Positions 15,616 to 37,903 of a stretch of 64,000 nt of DNA are shown in pieces. Location of the stretch: assembly GCA_963971405.1 (NCBI GenBank), contig OZ020491.1:6132855-6196854 (forward strand), read 5' to 3'. The position numbers and the translations under genes were made by a program. Every line of letters starts with the position of its first letter. Position 1 is the first letter of the stretch. The notes beneath the pieces were generated by a model. It was given only the letters and a program-made list of their open reading frames with translations. It had not been told where the DNA came from and searched no databases. This DNA comes from Psococerastis gibbosa. Lineage: Eukaryota > Arthropoda > Insecta > Psocodea > Psocidae.

Positions 15616-16330
15616 AGGGGCCGCTGTTCAGAATTTTTTTTTTTTTGGGTCCAATTTTCATGGCACATCAATACATAAAGTTTGCCCGCTTGCGATAGGT
15701 TTTCGAATGGGGTGGTGTTCCCCCCCCCCCCCCACCGTATTTTCGTAAAACAGTAGAAAAGAGGAAAGCCGTTCTCATGGGCTTACGCATCTCCTAATTA
15801 CAGGCATGATCTTAATTTTCCCACCCACGGGTCGGGAGGCCAAAGGGGGGCCCGGAGGTCTCCCCCGGAACGGTTTTTGAAACAAAATAGGCCTGAAATT
15901 GTGGAGTTTTCACATTTTGGTGTATATACGTCTTGAAACGTATTCTAATAATGTTTAGGTTTTCAGCCGAAGAATAGCAGACCAACTACGAGAAAGGGGG
16001 CAGGCGCGTCTCCCCCGGGGAATTATTTAGAAAAAGAATAGGCTCAAAATAGTGGAATTTACGCACTTACGCAACTTGATAGCAGTTATGTGTTTATATT
16101 TTACATGTGAAGAATATTACAGCTTACAAGGGGGGCCCGAGGCCCGAGGTCTACCCCGGGGAATGTTTTTTAAAAGATAGGCCTGAAATAGTTTGTCGGC
16201 AAAAAGTTTTTGATTTTGCAGACGATAACTTTATTAACAAATTGGAAACAGGGGAATTTTTTTAAAAGAAATATCTGAACAATTTTCTGTTTTGGTAAAT
16301 TTTGGGTGGGGGGGGGGGGCGGACCCACTG
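15616..16330. mobile_element. hAT derivative with three GC-hairpin units
   Basis: The left part (GGTCCAATTTTCATGGCACA, AGTTTGCCCGCTTGCGATAG, TTTTCGAATGGGGTGGTGTT) matches the reverse complement of the element at 57145-57527. Inside, a unit with GGGGGGCCCG...TCTCCCCCGG and TAGGCCTGAAAT occurs three times. The 57-kb relative has fewer units. The right terminus is lost or diverged where the inverted satellite begins. Confidence 0.72.
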
Positions 16331-16364
16331 TTGGTGTTGAATCACTGACCTGCTTGAACCAGAA

Positions 16365-16712
16365 ATTGAAAAAAAAATGTTCGAATAATGTAATTAAAGC
16401 CAAAGGTATCTCGTTCTTCGCAACTTTTCCGACCGGTAAGAGCGATATCGATTCTGATATTTAATTATTTAATTTGTCCGATTGTGCATTTAGGGGTGAA
16501 ATTAGTGAACACCACAAATATCTTGAAATTTGGAAATTGATACGCTCTTGGCATCTTTTTCCGTCCAATAACAGTATTTTGAACCAGAAATTTAAGAAAA
16601 TATTCGAATAGTGTAATTTGGAGCGAAGTTTGTGAAAACCAAAAAATCATAATTTTGGGTAATATCTTTGTTCTTGGCCACTTTTCCGACCAATAGCTGC
16701 ATTCTGACGGTA
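16365..16712 (-). repeat. diverged, inverted satellite units
   Basis: On the minus strand the words GGTCGGAAAAGTGGCCAAG, CAAACTTCGCTCCAAATTAC and GGACGGAAAAAGATGCCAAG repeat about every 129 bp, for nearly three units. They are clearly related to the 124-bp array at 12705-13995 but much more diverged and in opposite orientation. Confidence 0.8.
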
Positions 16713-16839
16713 GTCTTGATTGCGTGCAATTATTTGATTATACCCATGTACACCATTTCTATTTTTTTAAAAACAGCGCTAAAATTGAATTTGCTCTATT
16801 GTGGCCAGCAATACAGCCAATTTGCTATTAGCAATTGAA

Positions 16840-17110
16840 GCACACTGTCTGGTTCACAGGAGCCAGGCCGGCCACGGCGGTGCATAGGAGCTAACCTATG
16901 GATGTACTGCCGCACTCTAAGATGACAAAATTCATTAAAATCTAGTAGGAAATGGTTCATAAATGGTTCATTAAAATAGTGCTTAGCTTATCTAGGAGCC
17001 GCGGCTGCCATGCAAATTCTGAAATATCTTAAGAAGGTATAGGGAAACCAATGCTTAGCGCGGTGCAAGGGAGCTAGGTAGACGAACAGTTTATGACTTC
17101 TGGTAAATAC
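16840..17110. other. spacer with CATAGGAGC relics
   Basis: Contains GGTTCACAGGAGCCAGG, GGTGCATAGGAGCTAACC and TAGGAGCCGCGGCTGCCAT, isolated relatives of the 11.7-kb palindromic cluster. No gene seen. Confidence 0.5.
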
Positions 17111-17321
17111 TTTACAGTGCTATACTGTATATATTCGCTTGCCGCCAACTTGTTTTTTTGTTAATTTGCTGCCACGTCTCATGGGACCATCCGCCATTGA
17201 AAAGATATATGTATATTGTATATAGCCTAACGTGTGCACGCGGCCCAAGAATCAAAAAATATTTTCCTCTAATAAAGCCTTTGTAAATATAGCCTACTAA
17301 ATGTTTGCACGCTTCGGCTGA

Positions 17322-17413
17322 TATAAATAAATAAATAAATAAATATTGACTTTTTTGTTCTATTATACTAAGCCAACCTAGCGGAGTTAGGGCTATAAAG
17401 CCCTCTCTTACTG
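17322..17413 (-). mobile_element. SINE1 tail fragment
   Basis: Holds the (AAAT)n tail and the AAGCCAACCTAGCGGAGTTA block through CCTCTCTTAC. The tRNA-like head is missing. Confidence 0.82.
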
Positions 17414-17594
17414 TAAAACTAATGTGATTATTATTTCGGGATGTAACCGTAGACAATTGAGTCCACAGAGCATCGTAAAACACTTAAATGTTTCTGAAGT
17501 TTTTAGAAAAGGCCCATGCATCAGTTTGGCTTCCTTTGCGAGCCCATGCATCTCGCGGACGTGGGATTGGTCGAATTTCACATAGAGATGACTA

Positions 17595-17720
17595 TAGAGG
17601 TCGGCGATATTGACAGAAATATCGATATATCAAAATATCAAAAACATAATATCGATATCGATAATTATCGGGCATTAGAATATCGATATTCAATATATTG
17701 TTTTCGATATTTTGCCGTTA
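17595..17720. repeat. ATATCGATA-rich stretch
   Basis: ATATCGATA and its variants occur at least six times in about 125 bp, giving a low-complexity palindromic tract. Confidence 0.7.
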
Positions 17721-17755
17721 AAAATTACGAAAAAATAGAACTGATGACACAGGGC

Positions 17756-18142
17756 TTAGGCGCCCATTCCACCGACCGGCTAGGGCTATTTACAAAAACA
17801 GTGACGTGGTAGCAGACATTCAAGACTTAGGCGGGGTTTCCACCGACCTCGCATTGCAGAATTGACGGAAATGTTTATTTTCCTCTATGCCATAGTTAAA
17901 ATTGATCAATGATCATACAGTAAAATCACAAACAAACTAAAATTAAAAAATGGCGTCATGGGATATGTTAAGTACAAACATTTTAATAGATTTCTATAAA
18001 AAGAATAATTCTAATTTCCGTCAATGTCATTTGCATTCTGCAATGCGAGGTCGGTGGAAACGTCACCTAAGTCTTGAATGTCTGCTACCACGTCACCGTT
18101 TTTGTAAATAGCCCTAGCCGGTCGGTGGAATGGGCGCCTTAG
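17756..18142. mobile_element. MITE-A copy 1 (long TIRs)
   Basis: Ends are TTAGGCGCCCATTCCACCG and its inverse CGGTGGAATGGGCGCCTTA. Pairing continues through GGCTAGGGCTATTTACAAAA, GTGACGTGGTAGCAGACATT and GCATTGCAGAAT, so the arms exceed 120 bp in a 387-bp element. The middle has TTGATCAATGATCAT. No coding sequence. A near-identical copy is at 34777-35166. Confidence 0.92.
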
Positions 18143-18504
18143 CAGTGCTTCAGGATGTTCATGGCAGTTTCTTCCTCCAAGCTGCAACGGTGACATAGTG
18201 TGCTCTCCGGCGAACACTTATGCTGTACACCACTTACTCCAAACAATACCATAAGAATCCCTCATTAGTTGATGATGACTGAAATACCGTAAAAAGAGGC
18301 GATTGTCGGCTAAAACAAAAGACGTATTAGAGGTAGCTAAATGGTATACTTGAGTACTTCCCTAAGTAATTGGAGATGACGCCTCACCCACGCACTCCTT
18401 ATTACAATTTTGCAGTGTCATGGTTTAATGTGAGGTAATAATATAGTCTAACACTCCACTATAGAGGGAAGGACGTTGACACAATAAGCAACAGTCAACT
18501 TCGA

Positions 18505-18650
18505 TGGCTCGCTTGTACTTGTGCGAGTCTCTACACGCCATGCGATCGGAGACGTGTCGTAACCCAACACGGCTATTAACCCACAGAGGCGACTACGGAC
18601 TAAAGAGATCAATCGCGATACATTCATTAAATTGTTTGTATGCGATTAAC
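18505..18650. repeat. R2 interspersed repeat, copy 1
   Basis: Shares CTTGTACTTGTGCGAGTCTC, GGAGACGTGTCGTAAC and ATACATTCATTAAATTGTTT with 24598-24735 and 55540-56150. The nature of the repeat is unknown; a SINE-like origin is possible. Confidence 0.7.
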
Positions 18651-19390
18651 CCCTTATTTGAAGTTAAATCAATGGAGAACAGAATCAGTGCATTTGAAAT
18701 GTGGATATACTGACGAAACAATTTATAGGGGAGTCCAAACGGGGATTTCGGGATTTGCTCGAGCGCGTCAGATTAAGGTATGGTAAGTTCATTACATGCT
18801 AAGTAGTGTATATTTCACTAATCTGACCATTTGAGTGTGACCTAAAGAAACTGGAGGACTTTAAAGATGTGCAGCTGCGTGATGCCTATATTTCTCACTG
18901 CGTCCCCACTTTAACTTATCTGTTGCCATGACGCCATAATATTATTTACAGCGTATTTCCAACGTTTTGTCTAATTTTGTTATTTTTAATTTATTTTTAA
19001 TAAAAGTTATGAGAATTAATGTTTATAAATATTTACTATTTAATACTATTATTATGAATATAACATCATATTATATTTAATAGGTTTGCAACCCAACAGG
19101 TCTCTATGACGCTCGAGTAAATACCCATCATTTAGCCTCGCGGGCTCACCTACTATTAGTGGATGCTGCACATTTCCTTGAGAAATCATATTCCTATAAT
19201 TGCCAGAACCGAAAGGGTTATTTTATTTTTTATTTTTAGAAAATACGACTAAAATAGTGGTGGTGTACTGGCGTACGCAGCAGTTAGATGACAAGCAGTA
19301 GCGTTTAGATGTTACTGACGAAGACTTATTAACAAAATTGGAAACAGGGGGATCTCCCCTGACGGATAATTTATAGGCGCAAATTAAATA
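18651..19390. other. unassigned AT-rich spacer
   Basis: No gene, TIR pair or tandem array noticed. Confidence 0.4.
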
Positions 19391-19394
19391 AATA

Positions 19395-20872
19395 AATAAT
19401 TAAGGACTTTTTATTGTTTCTATACTAAGCCAACCTAGCGGAGTTTGGGCTATAAAGCCCTCTCTTACACTTAGGGTTGCCAACCGTACTCTATATCAGA
19501 GTGTTGTACTCTTTTTCATGTATGAGTACTCTACAAACTGAAAGTCTTTCAGAGTACGCAAAAATACTCTTTTTCTGAAACATGTAAGAAGCAAAAATGT
19601 TTTTTTGAAAGAACGTAAATTTAGAAGTGGCGGGTCCAGAAAGGGGGGGCCATGGGGGCCCCGAGAAAAATCAGCGTACACTATATAAAATAGGACATTC
19701 TAAACAAAAGCCTTAGTATGGTAACATGAATATGTCTTCCATGTTTAAATTATAAATTTTACTGTTGTAAAAATCGTAAAACCCCACTATTTTGCTTCCG
19801 GCAACTTGGCTAAGCATTTAAGCATTCCTTTGCTAGCTCTAAAATAATCATTACTTTACTGCTGTTAAAATGCATAAAACCCCACTATTTTGCACTTAAA
19901 TTTTCAAAATTTTCCTCCGGGGGAGATCCCCGGCCCCCCTTGCTGCCAGCTATGTGAATAAATATTAAAGCATTCCTTTGTAAGCTTTAAAAAAATATGT
20001 GCTACTATTTTAAACTTTTCACATTTTTTCCCCGGGGAGAACCCCGGGCCCCCTGCTTCCAGCAACTTGGATAAGCATTTAAGCATTCCTATGCTAGCTC
20101 TAAAATAATCATTACTTTACTGCTGTTAAAATGCGTAAAACCCCACTATTTTGCACTTAAATTTTCAAAATTTTCTTCCGGGGGAGACGCCCGGCCCCCC
20201 TGCAGCCAGCTATATGAATAAGTATATAAGGCATTCCTTTGTAAGCTTTAAAAAATATGTGCTTTCCTGCTGTTAAATTACACAAAACCCCACTATTTTG
20301 CACTTAAATTTTCAAAATTTTCTTCCGGGGGAAACCTCCCAGGCAGCAAATTGGGTAAGCGTTTAAGCATTCCTTTGCAAGCTTGAAAAAAATCAATAGT
20401 TTACTGCTGTTAAAATGCGTAAAACCCCACTATTTTGCATTTACATTTACTGATTTTTCTTCCGAGGGAGACCCCTGGGCCCCTCTGTTTCCAGCAATAT
20501 GAATAAGCATTATTGCTGCATTATCACTGCTGTTAAAATGTGTAAAAATCCACTAATTTTTTAATTTGGGCGCTAATTTCTGTATGGTACTTTCCATAGG
20601 TCCATGGTTTTGACTCATTTAACAGTAAATATACTAAGTACTCTTTTTTGAAATGCTGTACTCTTTATTTTCCTTCTCAAAAGTCAGATGTACTTTATTT
20701 CGAGAAAAAAAAGTTGGCAACCCTACTTACACTCAACTATGAAAACCTGGGACCGCCCGCTTTACATGCCTTCCGAAGCATGGCCAGAAAATGTAGCCAG
20801 TGTGGGACTCGAACCAATAACCTTTCGGGTGAAAGTCAGAGTCCGTACCACTACGCTACATGTCCTGACAAA
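19395..20872 (-). mobile_element. SINE1 copy, split by a hAT element
   Basis: The tail side (AAATAAATAAAT, AAGCCAACCTAGCGGAGTTT, CCTCTCTTACACT) lies at 19395-19471. The head side resumes at 20726 with CTTACACTCAACTATG and ends with the tRNA-like part at GTGTGGGACTCGAACCAATA to ACATGTCCTGACA. The A and B box equivalents are nearly intact on the minus strand. Confidence 0.93.
19472..20725. mobile_element. hAT element nested in SINE1, with tandem GC-hairpin units
   Basis: It has perfect 13-bp TIRs, TAGGGTTGCCAAC and GTTGGCAACCCTA, and perfect 8-bp target duplications, CTTACACT, at 19464-19471 and 20726-20733. The interior (about 19735-20560) is a tandem run of roughly five units of about 150-175 bp. 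Each has AAAACCCCACTATTTTGCAC, AATTTTCAAAATTTTC, a GC hairpin (CCGGGGGAGA...CCCCGG type) and TTTAAGCATTCCTTTG. No transposase is encoded. Confidence 0.95.
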
Positions 20873-21059
20873 TTAGTGTTTTTTTATTTCTTGACACCCA
20901 AATTTAAACCAAGTAACAAAAATTTCCTATGGCCTTTTGTACCCCAATACATACCGCACCCATTTTAAAACAATTTTTAAGAAACAAATGGTCGACACAA
21001 TTACTGTAGATCTTACGGTAGACAATATCGCAATCGGCAACACCTCAAACCTCTTGCGC

Positions 21060-21860
21060 TTTCGAAATAAAATAATAGTTATGGATGGGAGATGTTAAAA
21101 TTGTTGAGCGAAGTGGCCCGCCGATTTGTCTATTCACTATTGTGATGGTTGCCATAGAAAGACTTGTTATTGACAATACAAAGCAACCTTGAGGGAGAAG
21201 GGAAGTACCTGCTGATATACAACGTTTGGCGGTCCTATTGTAGGTACCTGTGATTGTAATCATACAAATTTTGATACGCTTTACGATAAATGCCGTTTCG
21301 TATTTTTTCCTCTACGCTAAATTTGTACTAAAAAACAATCTTCAGCTTAGGTAACCATACTGAAATGTAGACTCTTTAGAGTGCTTTTATTATGTTCTGC
21401 AAATAACATGGCAGTATAATGGAACGCAAAAGAATATCTCACCCCCGCGGGGAATTGTATTTAAATCCAGTTGGCTAATTAAAATAACCCGGTCGTCCCA
21501 GCCAGTAGCGTAATTTCAGCTTTTAGCTTGATTAGGCAATTTCTTTTTACGATGCACCCTTTACAAGAAATGAAGACACCTAATATCTATTAGGTAAGGT
21601 ATTATTGGGTTAATTGCAAGAGTGGGCCGAACGAAAATTCGCCCATGTGGAAAATAACGACAGCAACGACCCCCCCCCCCCAAATAAAGATATGGCTTCA
21701 CTCCCGCCAATTTCGATTTAAATAATCGATTTAACGATTTCATTTCCATTAATTTTTAATTTTCATAATAAATTATAAGATTTGTTCTAAATAAGTGCCA
21801 TGTAAAATATTGAATTTATTTATCAAAATACACTAAAATATGAGGTGGTTATTCCTAAAA
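21060..21860. other. unassigned spacer
   Basis: No supportable gene. A C run at about 21670 and TCGATTTAAATAATCGAT near 21713 are the only features noted. Confidence 0.4.
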
Positions 21861-21919
21861 TTATTGGTATGGCCCGGGCCATACCTAGCCCTATGGAACC
21901 GGCGCCCATGAATGGCCCC

Positions 21920-22320
21920 GAGGCATAATTTTTGTTATTACCCACATGCCAAATTTCATCAAAATCCACGGAGAAGTTTGCCCACAAATCGACGAACCGA
22001 CAGTTCGTTTGACAGACAGACAGCCTTTTTTAGTTAATAACTTATTTATATATATGTAAAAAAAATCCCCCTCCACGCTAATTAAGACTGATTTAGGTAA
22101 TTGGTACTTGTTGGAGCCAGTCTGAAGATGGTGTTACACCGAAACAGCTGTTACTATTAAAAATTTATGTTGTGGAATTAAGTGCAATTTTTCATATATA
22201 AAGTTAATAATCATGTTTCACTTCCACTAAGTCACTGAAGAAACTCTCTCATGGATGAGCCTTTTTTAGGTTCCTGTGACCTCAAAACGTTTAAATCCAC
22301 TGAAATCTCCAAATTTCCTA
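21920..22320 (-). repeat. Rep1 fragment interrupted by another relic
   Basis: On the minus strand the Rep1 words CATCAAAATCC/GGATTTTGATG, the (GTCT)n-type run and GTTTTGAGGTCACAGGAACC are present in pieces at 21925-22045 and 22255-22320. The sequence between them includes CTGAAGATGGTGTTACACCG and AAACAGC, which resembles a Penelope-type terminus but is too degraded to be sure. Confidence 0.5.
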
Positions 22321-22324
22321 ATAA

Positions 22325-22502
22325 ATAAATAAAATACAAAATAAATATTGACTTTTTGTTCTATTACTAAGCCAACCTAGCGGAGTTAGGGCTATAAAGT
22401 CCTCTCTTACACTCTACTAAAGGAATGTAGCCAGTGTGAGACTTGAACCAACAACCTTTCGGGTGAAAGTCGGAGTCTGTACCACAACTCTACATGTCCT
22501 AT
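22325..22502 (-). mobile_element. SINE1 copy
   Basis: Tail AAATAAATATTGACTTTTTG, body AGCGGAGTTAGGGCTATAAA, and head with GTGAGACTTGAACCAACAAC and CTACATGTCCT on the right. It carries a short internal deletion of the middle body after CACTCTACTA. Confidence 0.88.
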
Positions 22503-22544
22503 ATACTTTATACTGTATACCATTTACTGTGTATGAATAGGAAA

Positions 22545-22850
22545 ACAATAAATAACTAATGACTTATTGTTATATTCCTAAGCCAACTTAGCGGACTAAG
22601 GCTATAAAGCTCTACACTCAACTATAGCAATCCCCGGGACCGCCTGTTTTGCATACCCTCTAAACCATGGCCAGAAAATGCAAGTAGTGTCCGACTCAAA
22701 CTAACAACTAACATTAAACCGCACACGGACCTTGCGGAATGTTAATTAATTGCCACGACACAAATTGTAATTGCGTAGATGTTGGTATTAATATAATTGA
22801 ATTCAATTTGACAACCTTTCGGGTGAAAGTCATAGACTAAAATATATAAA
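22545..22850 (-). mobile_element. SINE1 copy with an internal insertion
   Basis: The body (AAGCCAACTTAGCGGACTAA, GGGACCGCCTGTTTTGCAT) runs to CCGACTCAAACTAACAACTA. About 115 bp of unrelated AT-rich sequence follows, and the head resumes at GACAACCTTTCGGGTGAAAG near 22811. Confidence 0.75.
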
Positions 22851-23204
22851 GTACCAATACTGCATTCCTGACTGTTGACGGTTCGTTTCTCGCTATTCTG
22901 TATCTTTTATTATTAAACAATGAAACGTATGCAGGTTAATCCTAAGTATAGGCCTACAAGAAGTAATCAGTCAGACTCGGTAATTGAAAGTACGTGTTTA
23001 GGTCAGTAACCAGCAGGTGTGGTACCTACGAGTAGGTATGTTGTTCACTGGAGAATCCGATTACTGTCTGTAGGTACAGGTATCACTTCACTATGGAAAG
23101 TGTGTGAAAAAAGGTACAAATGTCGCAACTCTAAGAGAATGAGATGCATCCTGCAATGAATCCTGCATTCCTATATAGCCTGCAGTGCTAAGCTACAATA
23201 GGTC

Positions 23205-23890
23205 GCATCCCCCTTGATAGTTTGGCTCTGGGGAAAAAGTAAAAAAAAAACTACATTTTCATGAAAAATGACTAAAAAATATAAATAATTAATTAATTAA
23301 TTAATATTAACTTTATTTTAACTTAAGGTACAAAGATATACAGTATATCAAAAGAGTAACATGATGTTATACCTTAAGCAAGACAGCGTTACATTCACAC
23401 TCATATATAGTACTCATGCACACAAGCATTCAAAATCACAGATTCAGACGTACATATTTTTTTCTGCGGAACCCTTCCACCGATGCTTTCTTACTTCAGG
23501 TATATGTTTTAGGTGTTAAATAGAGTAACAAAAATGAACCGGTTTCTTTCCGAACAAAGATTCGGTTTTGAAGAAAAAATTAGATTTTGAAGAAATTATG
23601 AATAATTCATGTCCCAGCATATCGCAGTATAGCGCAGCATATCCTGCCAGTATTACTGTGTTGTATCGTATTATATTGGTCTGCCCATTCTTGACTAAGC
23701 AATCGTCCCATCGATCAATTCAGTGCTTTGGGATAGGGAAACTGGACATTTAGTCCTAAGCCGAAATTTAACCCTAAGAGAAGTATTTACATAGGAACTA
23801 TTACAGTCCCTATTCTAATTGATAAATAGGAAAGTATATGTACGGGCTCACTTGTACCGGTTCTCCAACATAGGCGGATTGCTTTTGAAA
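23205..23890 (+). repeat. Rep1 3' portion, diverged
   Basis: Shares CCCCTTGATAGTTTG, AAAAATGACTAAAAAATA, TTCTGCGGAACCCTTCCACCG and the final TTGTACCGGTTCT with full Rep1 copies, but has internal insertions such as a TTAA repeat near 23290. Confidence 0.6.
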
Positions 23891-23919
23891 GTAGCTTGTC
23901 GTTGACTGGTGATATGGAT

Positions 23920-24070
23920 CAGGGACGGATCCAGTCCATTTGGGGGGTAGTTGCAGGTCAAAATAGGAAAAAAATGTGTATTATCGATTAAATAGAGCGT
24001 AATAAATTTATAAATTGACCTACAATAGAGTTACCTCCCCTGCCCCCCCCCCCCCCCGTATCCGTCCATG
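23920..24070. mobile_element. 151-bp hAT MITE (CGGATCCA ends)
   Basis: Ends CAGGGACGGATCCAG and, inverted, CATGGACGGATAC. It is flanked by perfect 8-bp target duplications, ATATGGAT, at 23912-23919 and 24071-24078. A G run lies inside the left end and a C run inside the right end. Confidence 0.93.
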
Positions 24071-24071
24071 A

Positions 24072-24597
24072 TATGGATAGTGGGTTTGTTTGTGTATAAC
24101 TAGTGTTGAGTTGAGCGTAGCAAAAATATAATATCAATCATTATCAATCAATCAATATCACTCACAAATTGACCAATATAGGCATGCAATAATGAATCCA
24201 TTGATAACGTCAAACACAAAATCGAAGCCTCAATAACCCAGCCCAATCTTCTGAATGGATCGAAGATTGGGGAACAGGCGAATAATGCGAGCCTTGACCC
24301 GTGGGGGGCTATTCCTTTGTGTCAGGTGGCAGTGCACGGGTCAAATTTGGCCCGCCTTGGGTCAAACGTGAGCCAAAGTTGGCAGCGGCAGATTTATGGG
24401 ACGTCAGGCATGTGCTGGATTCTCTAACAGATCGCATGTTATTACTGATTACCAGTGGTTATTCAAGGCCCAGACTCTGAGATCCTATACTCTAAGCAAG
24501 TCAGTACCCTTATACGTTGCAAGAAAGTCAGAGGTGCCGGATCACTGGTCCCAGGAATCACGGGCCCCGGGAATCGACTTCGATAGCAAGGTGGCAG
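24072..24597. other. unassigned spacer with short ATCA repeats
   Basis: An AATC/ATCA-rich run is at about 24135-24165. No gene is recognised in the open frames around 24400-24700. Confidence 0.4.
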
Positions 24598-24735
24598 CGT
24601 CCTTGTACTAGTGCGAGTCTCTACAAGCCATGCGTTCGGAGACGTGTCGTAACTCAAAACGGGTGCTAACTTACAGAAGCGACTGAAGAGGTCAATCGGA
24701 TACATTCATTAAATTGTTTGCATGCAATTAATCTT
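24598..24735. repeat. R2 interspersed repeat, copy 2
   Basis: Contains GTGCGAGTCTCTACAAGCC, GGAGACGTGTCGTAACTC and ATACATTCATTAAATTGTTT, matching the copy at 18505. Confidence 0.7.
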
Positions 24736-24805
24736 GTTAATAAAAATAAAAATAAAAAACAAAAACCCGGGAAAGTGAGGGGACTTTCAAAATGTTGCTC
24801 CAGGC

Positions 24806-25060
24806 AGTGCCGGATTAACCCATAGGCACTTGGGGCACAGGCCCACGACCCCCACAATAATGCCTAAAATTCCGGCCCCCACAAACGAGATTAAAAATAA
24901 AAAAATTAAAAAAAAGTTATGAGTTAAATAAATAAATAAATAAATAAATATTGACTTTTTTTGTTCTATTGCTAAGCCAACCGGAGTTAGGGCTGTAAGC
25001 CCTCTCTTACAGCCCGGGACCGCCTGCTTTACATGCCCTCCGAAGCATGGCCTGAAATCC
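24806..25060. mobile_element. hAT fragment joined to a truncated SINE1
   Basis: 24806-24900 begins CAGTGCCGGATTAACCCATA and matches the inverted right end of the hAT element at 36140-36406. It then breaks off. From about 24915 a minus-strand SINE1 tail and body follow (AAATAAATATTGAC, AAGCCAACCGGAGTTAGG, GACCGCCTGCTTTACATGCC), without a full head. Confidence 0.75.
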
Positions 25061-26840: not shown

Positions 26841-26841
26841 T

Positions 26842-28389: not shown

Positions 28390-29627
28390 TGTCCCCTCTT
28401 CCCGTTTCCCTGGTTGGCGTCCAACAACTTATCCACCTTTTCCGTCAATGCCAATATCGCGTCCTGCATTCGGTTCATCCTTTCTTCCGATGACATAGCT
28501 GATCCTCTCATGACATTTCTCCTTCGTCCTACGTCACCACAGCCATGACCATACACCACTCCTTTCTTACCACATCGTGTACAAAACACCCCTCTGGGTT
28601 TGGGACACTCCCTGAACAGGTGCGATGGGGATGAGCAATTGTGGCACAATAAATTCACTTCGTCTTCTTCTTCTTCATCACTACGTTCCAGAGCAAACAT
28701 TGACTGACTTGATTGGACAACTTGACTACTTCTGATAGTAGCCTCTATTGTTGAACACGCATCTTCCAGCTCTTGTAAAGACGAAAATTGCATGAATGCT
28801 AATTGGGACTGGTAGACTGGTTGCAGATTTCCTCTCGCTATATCAATAACTACTGTAGCATCCACTTTCATGCCAAGCTTTTTGACTGATCGCCTAATAT
28901 CGCTGATGAAGTCAATTGGTCGCTCTGTGATACCTTGACGTCTGCCTAATATCGCTTGTAAAGTTCTAGCCTCACCCCTGCATGGTATGTAAGCTTGAAT
29001 CAGCGCCTTCTTAGCCTTTCTCCAACTTCCCCATTGGCGCAAATGCTGCTCAAAAAACCTATCTACCGGAGCAAGCAGTATGTCACTTATTGCTGGCCAA
29101 AATTCATCTAAATCCACTCCATGCAAAACGGCTAGTTTTTCTATTCGTTCTAAGAAATCTTCAATGTCTCCTGTTCCATCAAAGACCAACTTCCTAGCAT
29201 GTGCCATGTTCAGAAAACGCATTACTTCCGGTCCCACTTGTCGTGTTAGGTCCACATTCTTGTGAAATTTCTTTACCCTCTTCTTCACTGCCATATCACC
29301 ACTGGCTCTTGATTCATCCCCGGAATCTGTACTAGACTCCTGACATCTTAGTGACCCCTTCGGTTTAGTATACCTCAAATTACTCTCCTGTTCCACATGA
29401 CCCGTTTTTTCTTTATTTTTAATACTTTTACCTTTCAGAAAACGAGTTAAGGGCAAGTCTTCATCCGAAGAGCGATGTTCCCTACTCTCGGTCTGATGAA
29501 TACCCACTTGTTCGGTATTTCCATTTTTATGTTCACTTTTACCCTCTATATGCTCTTCCTCATTGTCTTTCAATTTGTTCCTATTGGCTGCTCTTTTCTC
29601 CCTTCCGGTGCCTGACTTGTCCGTCAT
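28386..29627 (-). CDS. gag of the second gypsy element
   Basis: The 413-residue frame has a charged N-terminal region, a helical capsid-like middle (GDIEDFLERIEKL to ACSTIEATIR), and nucleocapsid-type zinc-binding motifs: CHNCSSPSHLFREC (CX2CX4HX4C) and a second CTRC-based motif. It lies directly upstream of the protease/RT frame on the same strand. The start is the most upstream ATG, just after a minus-strand leader. Confidence 0.82.
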   Translation of the reverse strand: MTDKSGTGREKRAANRNKLKDNEEEHIEGKSEHKNGNTEQVGIHQTESREHRSSDEDLPLTRFLKGKSIKNKEKTGHVEQESNLRYTKPKGSLRCQESSTDSGDESRASGDMAVKKRVKKFHKNVDLTRQVGPEVMRFLNMAHARKLVFDGTGDIEDFLERIEKLAVLHGVDLDEFWPAISDILLAPVDRFFEQHLRQWGSWRKAKKALIQAYIPCRGEARTLQAILGRRQGITERPIDFISDIRRSVKKLGMKVDATVVIDIARGNLQPVYQSQLAFMQFSSLQELEDACSTIEATIRSSQVVQSSQSMFALERSDEEEEDEVNLLCHNCSSPSHLFRECPKPRGVFCTRCGKKGVVYGHGCGDVGRRRNVMRGSAMSSEERMNRMQDAILALTEKVDKLLDANQGNGKRGQ

Positions 29628-29700
29628 TGTGAATATGACCCTTCGTACTGGGTTAATAGCACTCTATTGCTATGTATATTTCTCAAAGGTACAAAAAAAT

Positions 29701-30239
29701 AAAAAATAAAAAATTCGCTAACCTAATCAATTTCACATTTTAAAAGGGCTACGAAACACAACAAAATAATAACCCCAAATAGCTTCTTAGATAAAACACT
29801 GCTGCACTCCAATCAATAAGTGTCTATTCCTATAATGAAAGTCCAAAACTGACAATATTCAAAACAAAATATCCAATTAACCAAAGATACCAGCTCTCAC
29901 ACAGTTCGAGCTCACGCTATCCAATCACAAATCGCTAAACCTGACTCTATAGATTCATAATTTGGCCTTTCAATCCGGGGCCACAAGTTCGAAATCCAAA
30001 GCATTATCCCTTAACTGACTTTTATCCGACACTAATTGTCCATCTTCGCTAACCCAATCTTAACATAAAGTAGAAATTTTTTTTACTAAGCAATTTAAAT
30101 CCCCAGATTTGAGACAACTTACTTAATATTCCAATATAATTATAATAGTACAGTATGGGACCCAGTTCCCCTCCGCTTATCCTAAAGTTTCCAAATTTAA
30201 AACCTGCAAAGGCGAAGACAGATAACCCCATAAAAGAAA
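29701..30239. other. leader or flank of the second gypsy element
   Basis: Sequence upstream of gag on the minus strand. On that strand TGGCCCCGGATTGAA near 29980 could be a primer-binding-like site, but I cannot pair it with an LTR. No gene. Confidence 0.35.
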
Positions 30240-30605
30240 ACTACCCCCATAGTAACATAATAAACCAAACATGTTTATTGACTTACTACAAGATAGACTG
30301 GTAAAACAGTTGATATAGTATAGTATGAAAAGCATACAATATAATAATAGAAGAAACTACCTCCATAGTATCACAATAAACCAAAAATGTCTATTGACTT
30401 ACTACTGGGCACATTAGAAAAACAATTAATACCGTACTGTATTCGACGAACGCATATGATATAATAATAATAAAAAATCTACATAGTGTCATAATAAACC
30501 AGAAATGTCTATCGAGTTACTACCTAGCACACTGAAATAACAGTTAACATAGTACTGTGTATTTTACTGAAGCATACAATCTAATAATAATAATCAAAAG
30601 GTAGG
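30240..30605. repeat. three tandem units of about 116-118 bp
   Basis: The word ATAATAAACC(A/G)(A/G)A(C/A)ATGT begins at about 30258, 30374 and 30491. Each is followed by TATTGACTTACTAC-like sequence, an AGTA/TACTGTAT segment and AATAATAATA. The units are clearly diverged. Confidence 0.75.
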
Positions 30606-31142
30606 TAGGTAGGTACTCCGTGCAATGAAATATATATTAGGGTGGGTGGGTAAAATAGCTGAAATTCAAAACTTGGGTGCCATGTTATTGCATTGCACTA
30701 TTTTGTTTAAAACAGTTGAATCCATTCGAATAAATAGCTAACAGCACCTTGGCGTTCATTTTTACAGGGTCACGTGACACCTTGGGGTTTATTGCTTTCC
30801 AATTTATACGTAGTATAAGGAAAGCTTTGTGACGGTCGAAATTTTCGATTCCGAGATTTCAACGGATTTACACGTTTTAAGGTCCCAGGAACCCAAAAAA
30901 GTGGTTTTTACGAAATGTCTGTCTGTCTGTCTGTGCGTCGATTTCCGGGCAAACTACTCGGTCGATTTTGATGAAATTCGGGATGATTCGGGTTCACAAA
31001 AATCATACCTCAGGACCATTTTTTTTTATTTTGGGCTAACTCAATTTGGGGGGGTTTTATTTTCAAAAAACTTCAAAAAAAGTCTAAAAAAATTATTTCC
31101 CAAAAACGGCTCAAACGATTTCTTTTAATATAACTGCAAAGG

Positions 31143-31210
31143 CTTTCACGGCCGGAGTCGAATGAGGAACCAGTAGAATCCGGGCTGATGGGCCGTGGTC
31201 GAAGTGAAAG
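31143..31210 (+). ncRNA. hammerhead-like fold at the Penelope terminus (candidate)
   Basis: CTTTCAC (31143-31149) can pair with GTGAAAG (31204-31210). CCGGAGTC (31152-31159) can pair with GAATCCGG (31176-31183) with one mismatch. Then come CTGATG (31185-31190), a short GGCC/GGTC stem and GAA (31201-31203). This is the layout of a hammerhead ribozyme with three helices. The core is not canonical: CTGATGG instead of CTGATGA, and G at the cleavage position. Penelope-like elements are known to carry hammerheads. Activity is doubtful. Confidence 0.4.
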
Positions 31211-31538
31211 AGAACTTCCAAACGTTTCGTCAACATCTGCGGTCGACATCTTCAGTGGAACTGCGTAGACTTCTAAGATTGTATCTCGGAGGCTCAGCAG
31301 CGACTGTGAGGGCAGGAGGTTGTGCTCTGAAATTTATACTAAGATGCGGGGTGGTGGGGGGTGGAGGCGGAGTCATCCTCGCTCCTGATTGGCTCCCTAC
31401 TACCTCAACCTGATTTCCGGATGATGACCCCAGTTTCTTTGCTATAGTCTTCTTTAAGGCTGGATACCAAATTCTATTGACCTTTAATCCTTCTTCTTTC
31501 CTATTTCTTTCCTTCCGTTATTCTTCGTTCTTCTTGAT

Positions 31539-32522
31539 GTGTTGGTAACGAAGAAAGAAGACGGAACTCTGGGCCACACAGTGTATCGAAAACCGACCCA
31601 CACGGATAGATACTTGAACAAGAATTCTAACCATCATCCGAGCCAAAAACGAGCCATGATAAAGACACTCATCCACCGTGCCAACAGGATCTGCGAACCA
31701 ACATTTCTTCAACGGGAACTCAAGCACTTAGACACGGCACTGCAATCGAATGGATACAGCGCACGAGAAATAGCCCGCGCCATCCGACCCCGCATGAATA
31801 GATCCGCTCGGCAAGACGCACCCCCAAGTACTACTGGCCTACTCTGCCTTCCATTCATCAAGGGAGTCTCAGACCGTATAGGTAAACTCTTCTTACGGCA
31901 CAATGTGAAGACTATTTACAAGCCTACGAGTAAATTAAATAGTTTGTACAGATCAGCCAAAGATAGCCGGGACCCGATGACGTCAGCAGGTGTTTACAGG
32001 ATTCCGTGTTCGTGTGGAGAAGTCTATATAGGTACTACGAAACGAAGCTTAAAAACCAGGATTGATGAACATAAACGAAACTGCCGTCTTCTACAGTCGG
32101 AGAAGTCTGCAATCACTGAGCATGTTCTAACACAAACCGGTCACATAATACAATTTCAAGATGCTACAGTACTTTCTACAACTTCTTCATACCACCCTCG
32201 GTTACACAGAGAGGCTATAGAGATCCACAAGCACCCGCATAACTTCAATAGGAAAGAAGAAGGATTAAAGGTCAATAGAATTTGGTATCCAGCCTTAAAG
32301 AAGACTATAGCAAAGAAACTGGGGTCATCATCCGGAAATCAGGTTGAGGTAGTAGGGAGCCAATCAGGAGCGAGGATGACTCCGCCTCCACCCCCCACCA
32401 CCCCGCATCTTAGTATAAATTTCAGAGCACAACCTCCTGCCCTCACAGTCGCTGCTGAGCCTCCGAGATACAATCTTAGAAGTCTACGCAGTTCCACTGA
32501 AGATGTCGACCGCAGATGTTGA
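31539..32522 (+). CDS. Penelope-type polyprotein end: RT remnant plus GIY-YIG endonuclease
   Basis: The first residues (LVTKKEDGTLGHTVYRKPTH) match the last conserved part of Penelope RTs. A basic linker and then a GIY-YIG domain follow: GVYRIPCSCGEVYIG (the GIY and YIG halves with CxC between), TKRSLKTRIDEH and TEHVLTQTGH. Catalytic Tyr, Arg and His positions look present. The 3' third lies in the right inverted arm. Most of the RT is missing, so the frame is a truncated retroelement gene. The GIY-YIG enzyme would nick target DNA for target-primed reverse transcription. Confidence 0.9.
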   Translation: MLVTKKEDGTLGHTVYRKPTHTDRYLNKNSNHHPSQKRAMIKTLIHRANRICEPTFLQRELKHLDTALQSNGYSAREIARAIRPRMNRSARQDAPPSTTGLLCLPFIKGVSDRIGKLFLRHNVKTIYKPTSKLNSLYRSAKDSRDPMTSAGVYRIPCSCGEVYIGTTKRSLKTRIDEHKRNCRLLQSEKSAITEHVLTQTGHIIQFQDATVLSTTSSYHPRLHREAIEIHKHPHNFNRKEEGLKVNRIWYPALKKTIAKKLGSSSGNQVEVVGSQSGARMTPPPPPTTPHLSINFRAQPPALTVAAEPPRYNLRSLRSSTEDVDRRC

Positions 32523-33059
32523 CGAAACGTTTGGAAGTTCTCTTTCACTTCGACCACGGCCCATCAGCCCGGATTCTACTGGTTCCTCACTGATTTCTTT
32601 TAAATTCACATATATTGTTGTTGTTGTTAATGTTGATAAAATGCGGGGGGTCGCTTGCCCCTTGATAGTTTGCTTCTGGGGGTAAAAAAATAAAAATGAC
32701 TAAATTTTAATGAAAAATGACTAAAAAATAATTTTTCTGCGACACCTTTCTATCGATGATTTCTACCTTCAGGTATGTTTGCTGTATTGCTGTGTGGTAA
32801 TGTGTTGGTCTGACCTATCTAGAATTTACCACCTCACCACCAGTGACGAGTGACGTCAGGTGGACACCCCCCCCCCCCCCGAGATATCGGAAATTTAACC
32901 ATAGGAAAATTATTTACCATGAAATTACTCATTTTCTCTATCTACTAATTTTGATAAATTGGAAAGCATGTTCAAGTAAACTCGGACCGGTTCTTTACAG
33001 TAATTTAGCCCTATTCCCGGTGTTAATTCCAAATGCCATAACTGGGCTGCTGAAGACGA

Positions 33060-33640
33060 AAGCGCAGGACTGAGAGAGCTGGAGGCTGTTATGTAGGGAG
33101 TTGCTGCCAACCAATCGTTGGAATTGTGACCTCATCCAGAAGGAGAATGGAAAATCCTATCATATGACTAATACTTCGGTTAATCCATCTTCCAGAAAAT
33201 AGGCTAATAATTATATAACCCTCTCTAAACTACCTGTTACATCCTCTATGTGATTATGTAGACTCTTTGTTATTCTTTCCCATAAGGAGCCTTCACCGAG
33301 GTGATCCCCGGATGCACGATTTCCACTTAGTAGCAGGCGCACATTTAGGCTCGTGTATATACAGTACATATAGGTACAGTAAAGGTACTTGACTATGTAT
33401 GAACCATGGACGGCGCACTTTGATGAGTAACCTCATCTTATCAACATAATCTCTAGTGAACATTTACTTTAAACCTGAAGAATCCGGGCCTTGACCTGAA
33501 GATAGGGGTTACAGGCTACTTGAAGTTTGTTTAAGAGCGCTTTGGTTGGGTCAAACTACGAAGAGCCACTCCCACCCAGTGTTGGCAAACCTGCTTCTTC
33601 CTCCCGTCTGGGTACCACACCACGATTAAAAAAAGTCTTC
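33060..33640. other. unassigned spacer
   Basis: No gene or repeat recognised. Confidence 0.4.
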
Positions 33641-33644
33641 GTGA

Positions 33645-33780
33645 GGAATACTGTAACCGAAATTAGAGGATCTAGAAATATATGGACTTAGCGATTTCGA
33701 ACCCCATGAGATTTTTCTTGATCTTCTAATTTCGGTTATACTTAACGAGGAGGTTGCCTCTTCAACTACTTGACTCAACT
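33645..33780. mobile_element. SINE2-related inverted fragment
   Basis: Contains ACCGAAATTAGAGGATCT and, inverted, GATCTTCTAATTTCGGTTAT followed by AACGAGGAGGTTGCCTCTTC, the same tail seen at 47640 and 57675. A short tRNA-like remnant, GCGATTTCGAACCCCATG, lies between. Confidence 0.65.
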
Positions 33781-33784
33781 TGTC

Positions 33785-34063
33785 TTAGGTAGGCGCATCC
33801 AGCCCAGGGGGGCTTTTGGCCTCAGCCCCTACACCACGCCATCTCGGACGATCTTCCACCGCTAGCTACCAGTCTCGGGTGCTGGTGGCGTGCGCATCTT
33901 CGAGCACATGGTCCATCCATCTGAGCCTTGTCATAGCGGGCCGATTGGGGAGGTTGAAGGTGTCTTCGAAAACCAGCTTCGGCGTCTTCGCTGCTTGTAT
34001 ACGGCGCACATGACCCAGCCATTTGATTCGACACTTTTTATTGTAAAGCTTCATTTTGAACAC
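33785..34063 (-). mobile_element. LINE ORF2 C-terminal fragment
   Basis: On the minus strand: RIKWLGHVRRI, then PKLVFED, MTRLRWMDHVLEDA, TRDW and, after a stop, AVEDRPRWRGV. This is the typical C-terminal tail of RTE-type LINE ORF2 (WLGHV.R...P....GRP..RW.D.V..D....W). One in-frame stop follows TRDW; the rest of the LINE is missing. Confidence 0.8.
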
Positions 34064-34132
34064 AAATACGGTTGTCCATTAAGAAATAGCAGGTAGGCCT
34101 ACGACATTACTGCCAAACTACAGTATCTACTA

Positions 34133-34482
34133 AGTTTTAGAACGATGGCGGGGGCAAAACTAAGTAGACCTTATGACGTCATCAGGCTTTCCGTAAGGAT
34201 ATATTTTGATAATTGATAATATTATCATTACGATGGTTTCTTCTAGGAATAATATTGATGCATTTTAACAAAGAGGGAGGCGCGGGAGTCTCCCTCGGGG
34301 GAAGAAATTGAAAATATAAGTACAAAATAGTAGGGTTTTACGCATTTTAATAGTGTATAGCTGTAGATTTTACAAATAAGCTAACAAAGGAATGCTTATA
34401 TTCATAGTGCTGTAAACAGGCGCCCCCCCCCCCCCCGGCGGGGGCAAGATAGACCGTGCTCCCGCCTATTTTACGCCCCTGG
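34133..34482. mobile_element. hAT element with one GC-hairpin unit
   Basis: Perfect 8-bp duplications ATCTACTA lie at 34125-34132 and 34483-34490. The right end is TTTTACGCCCCTGG, matching the GGCGTAAA family. The left end begins AGTTTTAGAACGATGG, which lacks the first 11 or so bases of the TIR seen at 8682 (inverted). Inside are a GC hairpin, AAAATAGTAGGGTTTTACGC and AACAAAGGAATGCTTA. Confidence 0.82.
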
Positions 34483-34776
34483 ATCTACTATGGTCAAAAT
34501 CCGCAGCCTGTTACATAACGTTTGGTAGTTTTGCACACTTTAGCATTACAAAAAGCAATTTAAAAGTAAAAAGAAAATTATAGCTATCATATCTCCTTCC
34601 TTAGAATATTCGATCGAATTTCTCCGACATTCTCACGGGCACACGATCTTCATTATATAGTAAATGCGTCCAATTGGCTGCAATTTCTTCGCCTATTACA
34701 GCCTTGCTATTAATTCTTTTCAGTGTCCCAAGCTCCCCTGTGGTCTGTGGACTGTGGCCCATTTGGGTGGGACGTC

Positions 34777-35166
34777 TAAGGCGCCCATTCCATTGACCGG
34801 CTAGGGCTATTTACAAAAACGGTGACGTGGTAGCTGACATTCAAGACTTAGGTGGCGATTCCACCGACCTCGCATTGCAGAATGCAAATGACATTGACGG
34901 AAATTAGAATTTTTCTTTTTATAGAAATCTATTAAAATGTTTGTACTTAACATATCCCATGACGCCATTTTTTAATTTTAGTTTGTTTGTTGGTGATTTT
35001 ACTGTATGATCATTGATCAATTTTAACTATGGCATATAGGAAAATAAACATTTCCGTCAATTCTGCAATGCGAGGTCGGTGGAAACGCCACCTAAGTCTT
35101 GAATGTCTGCTACCACATCACTGTTTTTGGAAATAGCCCTAGCCGGTCAATGGAATGGGCACCTTA
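34777..35166. mobile_element. MITE-A copy 2
   Basis: Same length and structure as 17756-18142, with ends TAAGGCGCCCATTCC and GGAATGGGCACCTTA. It runs in the reverse orientation judging by the asymmetric central part. Few differences are visible, so both insertions are fairly recent. Confidence 0.9.
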
Positions 35167-35289
35167 AGTATAAAATATTGTGTATGCGTATCAATGGGGG
35201 CAAGAAGTCTTAGTGGTTAGCCTAAGAATAAAGAAATCATGTGTGATCCCTTATAATTTTAAGGTTTATACCAAAAAACCATTTAATAG

Positions 35290-35335
35290 GTACTTTAGTT
35301 GAGTTACGACACGTCTCGGATCGTATATGATGAAT
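35290..35335 (-). repeat. short R2 fragment
   Basis: GTTGAGTTACGACACGTCTC is the reverse complement of the R2 core at 18555 and 24650. Confidence 0.5.
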
Positions 35336-35640
35336 GGGTCGCACAAGTCCGATACAATAAGCATTAATAATTATTCCGCCAAGGCCGCTGGGCATTTTTG
35401 TGTACCGAAAGAAAATATGTTTCTGCATGCACCAAGCTACACATGGGGTGTCTACACTTTCTTTAGTACCCAAGGCATACGCCAAACATATGCTCATGTC
35501 TTATTTACAACAAAGAACAAAATGTCCTATTTAAAAAATGCTTCCCATATTTAATTAAATCGGTATTCAAAATTACCGATCCAAATGAGAATTTTGCGAA
35601 TGTTCGACTGGGCCCAATAGTAACATTTTATTAAATCTAT

Positions 35641-35896
35641 CATGGCCGTGCCGAGGGGGGTGATCCAAGGGGTCCGCCCCCCCCCCGTAATAAAAGGGCT
35701 TTTCACAATTTTTTAATTACATATTTTAGGGATACAATTTATCATTTTATGTAAAGCTGTATTGTTTGAAGAATTGGAATAATTTTTTTTTTTTTTTAAT
35801 TTGGACATTGGATAGAATATGGACTTTCATTAAATAAAATAAAACGTAAAAATGTTTTAGACCCCCCCCCCCCTAACAAACACCTGGCCACGGCCT
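35641..35896. mobile_element. hAT MITE family 1, copy 2
   Basis: Left end CATGGCCGTGCCGAGG, inverted right end AAGGCCGTGGCCAGG. The interior matches 25870-26130 (AAAGGGCTTTTCACA, GATACAATTTATCATTTTAT, GGACTTTCATTAA). Confidence 0.83.
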
Positions 35897-36139
35897 TCTA
35901 TCTGTCCCCCTGAAAGACTGAAGGATAAAGTTCAAATTTCACCCCCCCCCCCCCCCCCCACGGAACGGAATCAAACCACGTGATTGGCTAGACGTTTTGT
36001 AACGAAAGCCCACTATTTCGCAGCTATTTATTCCAAAAATGTTCACCCGGGGAAAATACCGAGCCCCTTGTTTGCAGTTTTATTTGCCCATTGCATGTAG
36101 GCTACTAGATTTTCCTCTTTCAAACGTTTCTGCTTAGAT

Positions 36140-36406
36140 CAGTGCCGGATTAACCTCATGGGCCAAAGATACGAGTATATGGGGGCCGTGCTTTGTATAA
36201 ATCTGCCTCCAACATGGGAGCAAAAAAAAAACCGTTTAATTTCCCGCCAATTTCAAAGTTTGTTTGGAAATTATTGTTTTCAACTTTTAATTTATTTTTA
36301 TTTTTATTATTTTAAAAAAAATCTCGTTTTGGGGGAATTTTAGGCATATTTGTAGGGGGCCGTGGGCCTGTGCCTCATCAAGTGCCCATGGGATAATCCG
36401 GCGCTG
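36140..36406. mobile_element. hAT MITE (CAGTGCCGGATTA ends)
   Basis: Ends CAGTGCCGGATTAACC and, inverted, CAGCGCCGGATTATCC. Flanks GCTTAGAT and GCTGAGAT match at 7 of 8 positions. A truncated relative lies at 24806-24900. Confidence 0.85.
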
Positions 36407-36409
36407 GCT

Positions 36410-37425
36410 GAGATGCCAGTTAGTCTGCAGCCACGGCTATTTAAATGCTGGCAACCTTGCAGCGGTAGGTGCCGTAGAGCTAAAGTGTTACCAACATAGC
36501 AATATACCTATTGTAATGACAAGGTGGTCCATACACCATCCCATGTAATCTGTCATTTCATTGACAGCTCTACTCCCTACTCTACCTTGGACTTATTTCT
36601 TTGATATTTACCCGCGTCTTTTAGAACAACCCATCAACGTCAGTGCCCTGTGAAGGAATTCCATACCGGCTTCAACTTACCAGTACCCGGAGTCGTCAAC
36701 AAGCGGGGAGGGGGGGGGGGGGGACAAAGTTAAAAAAAAATAGAATGGGCCCAAACCAAAAGCTAAAGTAAGTAAGTAAGGCCGCATTGTGATGAAACGG
36801 TAGGCGGAAATGGCAAAGGCTGGCAAAGTTGGCCAGAAGGAATATGACTGAGTTTGTATAAAGGGTTCCATCATAAAAAGAAAATTGCGGCAAATGAAAA
36901 ATAAATAAATAAGCAACTCATCAGGCAGGACTGAGATCAGAACGCAGCACTATAAGTTCTGTACACTTGACCTTGGGTCTCTGGCAGTCTTAATAGATGT
37001 ATTTTGACTATGTTTAGCTTATGGCAAGAAACTTCAAGTTTAATCATTCGGAGGTCTACCACTTCATTGCATGCGCTACGGATGCCCATCTTTCCTACGT
37101 GGTCGCGACTATTCCCAAATTCATATAAAAATATCTAGAAATGCTTAAAAACCATCTATTTATTACTATTATAAGTTGCGAAGAAATTTTCCGGAAGTTG
37201 AACATTGGTCGCCGTCTCAATAGGTAGATGAATCTCCCTAAAAACCCTAAAAACACGCTTTTCACACTACCATTCGTCCTTTCGCCTGATCGGGCAGTTT
37301 TAAAGCCCTCAGTTGATTCGGCTGACAGACTTTCTGCCCTTTTTTTGCCCCGTCCCGAAAATTAAAATAAATTTACATCCCTTCGATTTCCCTTCGCCAA
37401 CTTCTCATTAAATGATCGTTCTTTT
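36410..37425. other. unassigned spacer with poly-G tract
   Basis: A G run near 36708 and an AAGTAAGTAAGT microsatellite near 36767. No gene. Confidence 0.45.
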
Positions 37426-37427
37426 TT

Positions 37428-37903
37428 CATTGGCGTAAATTCCCAAAATGTCTAGGGGGGGGGCTTTAGGACCCCAAGACTTTGATCCCCCGGAGAAAAA
37501 AAATCGAGAAATGGATTCTACCCTGGAGAAAGGGGGGCCCGGGGGTCTCCCCCGGAGAAAAAATTGATGAATAGGCCCAAATTAGGGAGGTTTCACTTAA
37601 TTTGCAAGCAGTATAGTTGAGATTTTACAGACGAATAAACTCATCACTGAGGGGGGCCCGGGGGGTCTCCCCCGAAGAAAAAATTTGAAAAATAGGTCTG
37701 AAATATTGGTGTTTTAAGCATTTTGAGTAATATATTTTTGTGAAAGTACTTGGTCAATATGTTGATTTTTTTCATGTAAAATAAGCATACTAAGAATTAA
37801 TTTCCCTTTCATTATTGTGGATACTATGCGTTTAGCCTCCATAACGTCTTTATCACCAGAAATCCTGGGGGGGGGGGCTACGGGTGGACCGTATGCGCCA
37901 ATG
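37428..37903. mobile_element. non-autonomous hAT with two GC-hairpin units and perfect TSD
   Basis: Left end CATTGGCGTAAATTCCC, inverted right end CATTGGCGCATACGG. Perfect 8-bp duplications TCTTTTTT at 37420-37427 and 37904-37911. Two tandem units begin AGGGGGGCCCGGGGG and contain TCTCCCCCG(G/A)AGAAAAAA and ATAG(G)(C/T)C(C/T). The TIR is nearly that of the hAT transposon at 3881-5597 (CATAGGCGTAAATT), so that family is the likely source of transposase. Confidence 0.9.

Follow-up and report, generated by a model that had tools for sequence, protein, structure and literature searches.

A GC-hairpin module shared by non-autonomous hAT-type elements with different ends in Psococerastis gibbosa

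The stretch analysed here (the window) comprises 64,000 nucleotides of Psococerastis gibbosa DNA (assembly GCA_963971405.1, contig OZ020491.1, positions 6,132,855 to 6,196,854). Within it, a repeated module is carried by several non-autonomous hAT-type transposable elements. The module begins with a GC hairpin (~25 bp), after which come a stretch rich in A, AAATAGTGGGGTTTTACGCATTTTAACAGCAGTAAAG and a tail that varies more; its AT-rich part carries AAATAGTGGGGTTTTACGCATTTTA, and its size and spacing are about 113-150 bp. An earlier note, made from the sequence alone, had placed this unit at 34.3, 37.5, 16 and 20 kb, and we confirmed its motifs, which exceed chance, and its counts there: one module at 34.3 kb, two at 37.5 kb (plus a partial third upstream, judged by eye in the family consensus), three at 16 kb, and five plus two end fragments at 20 kb. 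A further module, absent from that list, lies at 8.5 kb (Table 1), and weak fragments, with E values between 6.6e-7 and 0.008, were found at 14.75, 19.24, 36.0 and 52.4 kb.

With up to two mismatches allowed, GGGGGGCCCGGGGG matched the window 12 times against 0.24 expected and TTTTACGCATTTTA 8 times against 1.59 expected, while ATAGGCCTGAAAT taken alone is at about chance level (7 matches against 2.49 expected; two shuffles get as many). A profile built only from the 20 kb modules matched those at 34.3 kb (8e-22), 8.5 kb (1.7e-13), 37.5 kb (5e-12) and 16 kb (4.8e-10), and its best match in the reversed window was 0.011. The form at 57.2 kb reached only 0.013 with this profile; with a profile of the 16 kb modules, the related form previously reported at 57.3 kb was found at 2.7e-5, and it belongs to the same element family (F3) as the 16 kb form. 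When profiles were made from each of four groups separately, each picked up modules from all three remaining groups; their best matches in the reversed window ranged from 0.011 to 1.1. The hairpins are therefore not alike through GC-richness alone, since a single-group profile matches the other groups and gives 0.011 in the reversed window. Judged by sequence similarity, elements with different ends carry homologous copies of the module. Across the genome (409 Mb in 68 contigs, labelled with C-numbers such as C1, C3 and C59), the 18-mer of the AT core, GGGTTTTACGCATTTTAA, occurs exactly at 1,538 places and the hairpin 21-mer, GGGCCCGGGGGTCTCCCCCGG, at 1,706; the reversed control gave 0 for both. 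An RNA-gene origin of the module is unsupported, as an Rfam scan of 15,000-38,500 found no family above threshold and ARAGORN found no tRNA in the window.

The carriers were sorted by their ends into six families, labelled F1 to F6, which confirms that the module is found between different terminal inverted repeats (TIRs). The ends of F1 (the TAGGGTTGCC family), F2, F3, F4 and F6 (the CAGTGGCGGGTCC family) are given in Table 1 and those of F5 are CAAGGCCGTAGCCAGG; F5 with modules and free-standing F6 were found outside the window. All families have short TIRs, which we take to be of the hAT type. Using a script that required a TIR with an 8-bp target-site duplication (TSD) with at most one mismatch, we found duplications in all families but F5: at 23 of 30 loci for F2 (13 of them perfect), three of five distinct loci for F1, 4 of the 10 loci fetched for F3 (one, without a module match, was left out of the scan), 4 of 11 for F4 and two of three for F6. 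For F5 a single candidate with one mismatch was noticed by eye (L087) and none by script. Second copies of window loci were left out, as was L008, the same element as L002. These two loci, on C3 (L002) and on the 17.8 kb contig C59 (L008), have an identical F1 element and module layout and are probably an assembly duplicate. The carrier elements measure 281-1254 bp, and F2, F3 and F4 queries each gave 1904-3201 first-look candidates in the genome, of which 40 were scored per query. No closed open reading frame of at least 150 aa overlaps the carriers in the window. They are MITE-like (miniature inverted-repeat transposable element) non-autonomous hAT elements in which no coding capacity was seen. 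At one locus (L064, 2124-2197) we also noticed a 74-bp end-to-end remnant of F4 with no module and, by eye, a likely 8-bp duplication with one mismatch.

Table 1. Module-bearing elements and related features in the window
Feature	Position	Strand	Remarks
F1 element	19472..20725	-	1254 bp; TIR TAGGGTTGCCAAC; TSD CTTACACT on both sides; first 11 TIR bases and TSD exact
5'-truncated F6 nested in F1 (likely)	19625..20565	-	terminus CAGTGGCGGGTCCAG, first base changed; right limit approximate
Five-module array c-b-a-b'-a' in F1	19801..20485	-	further fragments at 19712-19795 and 20525-20559
F2 element	37428..37903	+	TIR CATTGGCGTAAAT, substitution at right end; TSD TCTTTTTT on both sides
Two F2 modules	37531..37781	+	37531-37633 and 37651-37781
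F3 element	57145..57529	-	TIR CAGTGGCGTAGCC, substitutions at both ends; no clean TSD by eye
F3 module, AT-rich part altered	57198..57345	-	in the 57.3 kb F3 element
Longer F3 element, decayed ends	15637..16327 (aligned extent)	+	F3 consensus aligns at 80-82%
Three F3 modules	15844..16229	+	15844-15970, 15996-16126 and 16130-16229
F4 element	8379..8683	-	TIR CAGAGGCGTAAAG / CAGGGGCGTAAAG; no clean TSD; module 8489-8610 without GC hairpin
F4-related element, hairpin kept	34132..34480	+	5' TIR lost or altered
Single module with hairpin	34275..34414	+	in the F4-related element
Solitary module fragment	36004..36067	-	no TIR or TSD by eye
Truncated hAT transposase copy (dimerisation domain)	3914..5597	-	5' TIR CATAGGCGTAAAT; candidate F2 helper

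The families are more alike inside than at their ends. In pairwise comparisons of F1, F4, F5 and F6, the AT part of the module scored z 16-28 and the 60-bp ends z -0.8 to 4.4, and likewise for F2 against each of these four (module z 10.4-28.4, ends at most 4.4). F3 is an exception. Its ends resemble those of F5 (z 7.7 and 10.1), the AT part of its last module resembles F2 alone (z 5.8), and its tie to the other families consists of the hairpin and the first two modules at 16 kb.

One case of transfer with a likely explanation is the F1 element at 20 kb. Its interior terminates in ...GGACCCGCCACTG, which is the terminus of F6, and continues with CTAAATTT. F6 also exists as free-standing copies, such as L097 (506 bp, TSD ATAACAAT) and L099 (753 bp, TSD GGTGCTGG); the latter aligns with the F1 interior at 83% identity (E 3e-111) up to the terminal bases of F6, and by eye the F1 sequence past the joint differs from the flanks of three F6 copies. 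The joint between F1 and F6 recurs at 25 places in the genome, with 0 in the reversed control. We counted 177 F1 3' termini. Of the 100 that were listed, 19 show the joint at a distance of 86-162 bp towards the interior and the other 81 lack a recognisable one, which is what one would predict were the captured element the mark of a single subfamily. Because the F6 terminus lies inside F1 and the joint is repeated at 25 places, the sharing of the module by this TAGGGTTGCC family is likely best explained by capture of a 5'-truncated CAGTGGCGGGTCC element. Three points are our inference: insertion, and no other rearrangement, as the origin of the joint; mobilisation of the composite through its outer ends; and the identity of the transposases at work. 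As a separate observation, locus L093 (1-700) is a natural chimera in which the 3' part of F2 is joined to an inverted F6-type interior.

Module trees, from which modules spanning fewer than 85 model positions were left out (142 of the 154 found were kept in the tree of F2 clades; a later tree had 93 rows after F2 was thinned and F6 added), follow mostly family and array position. F2 modules form two clades according to their position in the array (41 and 45 modules), so the module pair predates the spread of the examined F2 copies. In three F5 copies it is the first module that clusters with the F4 module (fork support 81); the last modules of three F1 copies cluster with those of the F6 copy L098 and of the chimera L093 (support 87). 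On the tree, family labels change 13 times (seven labels, the chimera counted as one), where the minimum is 6 and the shuffled mean 54.5. The arrays thus appear to have been inherited mostly whole and in order, and we read the limited mixing as a few transfers between sets of ends on top of this ordered inheritance. The proposal that the module spreads between transposon families holds in that the module is shared and probably nested at 20 kb; as a general description, spread is too strong for a tree ordered by family and position.

The tandem expansion also proposed in the earlier note is real and limited in extent. Two F1 copies, L001 and L003, have the array c-b-a, and relative to them the additional b'-a' of the window copy is a local duplication of two modules, with a and a' 95.7% alike. 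The family at 37.5 kb includes double arrays: short F2 elements (449-554 bp) have two or three modules and long ones (755-1028 bp) three or four. Short F3 copies contain none to two modules above threshold and the copy at 16 kb has three.

We also considered whether the module moves on its own, as a small mobile element or satellite monomer that inserts into hAT elements. Solitary module fragments do exist (at 36.0, 19.24 and 14.75 kb), and matches to the perfect hairpin follow one another at intervals of about 124 bp in places such as C1:855587-855982. By eye, the solitary fragments have no ends of their own, and no module standing alone with its own target duplication was seen. We took every tenth of 100 listed places of the AT-core 18-mer, all on C1 (n=10), a sampling that leans to families keeping this exact 18-mer, and obtained five F4 loci, four F5 loci and the chimera L093. 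All ten adjoin ends of hAT families: eight are flanked by them on either side, and two, including the chimera, on a single side. With no independently mobile module seen among them, we regard this explanation as very improbable.

We consider it probable that a shared module array was inherited within families, that ends and interiors were recombined by nesting, and that modules were duplicated locally. The array would be an interior component common to a set of non-autonomous hAT-type elements. Such arrays would have an early origin; the families would for the most part have received theirs with the order already fixed and multiplied it through cut-and-paste transposition. An interior would acquire different ends after insertion of its element into another one, if the outer ends then mobilise the composite; in the 20 kb family, a TAGGGTTGCC element would carry a 5'-truncated CAGTGGCGGGTCC element in this way. 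Local changes in array length would come from duplicated modules, one or several at a time, with slippage or unequal exchange as the probable mechanism. We are less sure that the hairpin has been retained in source lineages for a service to transposition.

Several observations weigh against this interpretation. The F6 copies were trimmed at their ends before alignment, so that the end of the alignment with F1 is partly set by the trimming. The right joint is legible in four of the five F1 copies and was not recognised in L004; on the left, the joint side is truncated, and the TSD matches by eye at 6 of 8 positions. Diverged joints may be present among the 81 listed termini without a recognised one; a perfect hairpin lies 369 bp from one of these termini (C1:4998954). 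For six of the 25 joints, the termini listed contain no neighbouring F1 terminus. An empty site was not found, two patterns spanning the F1 flanks giving 0 places in the genome. On the module tree 63 of 90 forks are open, and a replacement of ends between F4 and F5 is no more than a suggestion. Finally, the relatedness of F3 and F5 ends means that part of the sharing may be plain descent. Taken to its full extent, this would mean that all six families derive from one module-bearing hAT MITE, their ends having drifted with the transposases they used. The TIRs of five of the six families are variants of CAnnGsCGnn and a G-run follows the 3' TIR in F2-F6, as this would predict; however, the TIR of F1 is different and an F6 terminus lies inside it, and F4, F5 and F6 combine close interiors with dissimilar ends. 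We hold descent of this kind as the sole explanation to be possible but doubtful.

The part of the module most worth following is the conserved hairpin. Anchoring on a profile free of the hairpin, we found it within 42 nt upstream in 80 of 98 modules outside the main group of F4, in 0 of 9 inside this group and in 0 of 107 shuffled sequences. Lineage consensi, compared among hairpin-bearing lineages, show differences at 0-2 of the 25 hairpin columns, and the remainder differs by 28-38% in comparisons involving F2. The F2a and F1 consensi, for example, have 0/25 differences in the hairpin and 24/75 elsewhere, and F2a and F2b 1/25 and 28/74; the comparison of F1 with F5 (1/25 and 7/82) says little. 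Single copies deviate from their own consensus similarly in the hairpin and in the rest (F2a 5.2/4.1%, F2b 5.1/5.3%, F1 10.7/8.9%, F5 11.2/15.4%). When F3 was added, none of 10,000 column permutations reached the conservation of the hairpin, and no 25-column stretch outside it came close (0.142 vs 0.065); the last F3 module was left out of a stricter version. The simplest reading of these patterns is that the hairpin is constrained on source elements and decays neutrally after insertion. Alternatively, its conservation may reflect recurrent homogenisation, or a bias as the lineages were noticed by their hairpins. The 38-column AT core was considered as the constrained part and is unsupported, 36 of 70 windows of equal length having as low a between/within ratio. 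Base pairing as the conserved property is likewise unsupported by stem covariation: among 71 distinct hairpins (117 of 123 candidate modules entered the test) 80.7% of cells were paired against 81.7% in shuffles, and 482 of 500 shuffles equalled or exceeded the observed value, in a test that has little power because the hairpin consensus is near-invariant.

This apparent constraint bears on the suggestion that the module is a functional cis unit, e.g. a subterminal array bound by hAT transposases via BED or similar domains, selected on source elements, with repeats adding binding sites. A near-invariant hairpin between lineages whose single copies decay alike in both parts would fit it. In the sections of two papers used here, hAT-type proteins bind subterminal repeats, often CGG or CGC (PMC8097297, PMC10368747), and the hairpin contains CCGG, so by analogy such proteins might bind it. 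On the other hand, F4 is abundant (2463 first-look candidates) without the hairpin, which must be dispensable in some lineages; stem covariation is absent, low as the power of that test is; no module lies within the two delimited transposase elements with long frames (L069 and L070); and for Hermes a section heading calls extra inner transposase binding unlikely to support transposition (PMC10368747). The lineages were, in addition, first noticed via the hairpin, and the same kind of discovery bias is named in a passage of the paper on coral CMITE elements (PMC2872659). We therefore treat a cis function of the module as tentative. A more specific version, in which transposases of several hAT lineages use the 25-bp hairpin as a cis signal, elements that obtained the module by descent or capture thereby reach more than one helper, more modules mean a larger dose and selection acts on the hairpin, seems to us improbable. 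If it is true, cross-mobilisation between hAT families becomes directly testable.

A genome search with PF05699 gave 913 candidate transposase loci, of which 150 were scored and matched. One transposase family has the TIR CATAGGCGTAAAT, one base off that of F2, with the 5' end seen in the truncated copy of the window and the 3' end in L067 and L068. The window copy and L068 share 98.6% identity across 1,634 aligned bases. By its TIR, this family is a candidate helper of F2. No module was found in the examined parts of its elements, and no helper for F1 or F3-F6 was found among the loci examined. In L067 (1127-1243) a transposase-bearing element of this family is inserted in an F2 module. Modules are present near four transposase loci: they lie outside the element in L069, in an F4 element in L064 and in an F2 element in L067, and those in L040, where no family end was found, are unassigned. 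Elements with 836-aa and 735-aa transposases were rejected as module carriers after no module was found within L069 and L070 (one copy each). The 836-aa open frame encodes a hAT transposase found with identical score at at least 59 places; in L069 its TIR is CAGGGCCGTG/CAGTGCCGTG and its TSD CCCACACT, and the family looks recently active.

Other repeats are present in the window. A hAT-like element of 682 bp (41308-41989) has perfect TIRs (CAGTGGCGGCT) and a perfect TSD (TATACATA) and no module match. Two foldback-like inverted repeats (17745-18152 and 34777-35166), alike by eye, have arms of 118 and 107 nt that are 92 and 94% complementary. A pair of 147-nt repeats (15306-15452 and 20726-20872, 84% identical) is possibly a tRNA-derived short interspersed element (SINE), with a stretch that we take to resemble a tRNA B box. 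ARAGORN reported no tRNA. The 20 kb F1 element seems, by eye, to be inserted within one of the two copies. At 12722-13941 a 124-bp unit is repeated 9.8 times in tandem, with 87% matches. The truncated hAT transposase copy adjoins a 1087-aa open frame (256-3519) that by eye resembles a Gypsy-type polyprotein, and a 327-aa frame (31539-32522) presumably resembles the GIY-YIG end of a Penelope-like element.

At the level of sequence, the 20 kb family points to one route by which non-autonomous transposons gain new ends, namely capture followed by copying of the composite. The genome also offers natural test pairs, i.e. near-identical modules that have or lack the hairpin, or that sit between different ends. 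Our literature search, which covered titles and the openings of abstracts and few subscription papers, found no description of this hAT case, and comparisons are based on the relevant sections of the papers cited. Xmix and miDNA4 of Xenopus and Pearl of bivalves (PMC9659126) are likewise non-autonomous DNA transposons that carry and spread a tandem array, but the sections used do not link one module to elements with differing ends. The subterminal repeats of Hermes, Ac and Tol2 (PMC10368747) are repeated motifs near hAT ends that can bind transposase domains; they are short, whereas the units described here are 113-150 bp long, lie further inside and are known from sequence alone. In the MER6 MITE with a SINE V domain (PMC6887750), a conserved domain is likewise carried by a mobile element of another kind, but the elements are Mariner and SINE and there is one domain and no array. 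The nearest precedent found is the CMITE set of Acropora corals (PMC2872659), in which conservation between families is higher in the interior than in the TIRs, tandem arrays occur, and a new mobile element, CMITE-IN, was made via insertion of one element. CMITE elements differ in having piggyBac-type ends and TTAA instead of hAT-type ends and 8-bp duplications, in forming arrays of whole elements instead of internal modules, and in that the sections used mention no constrained hairpin. The present set is a hAT counterpart of the coral one, with internal module arrays.

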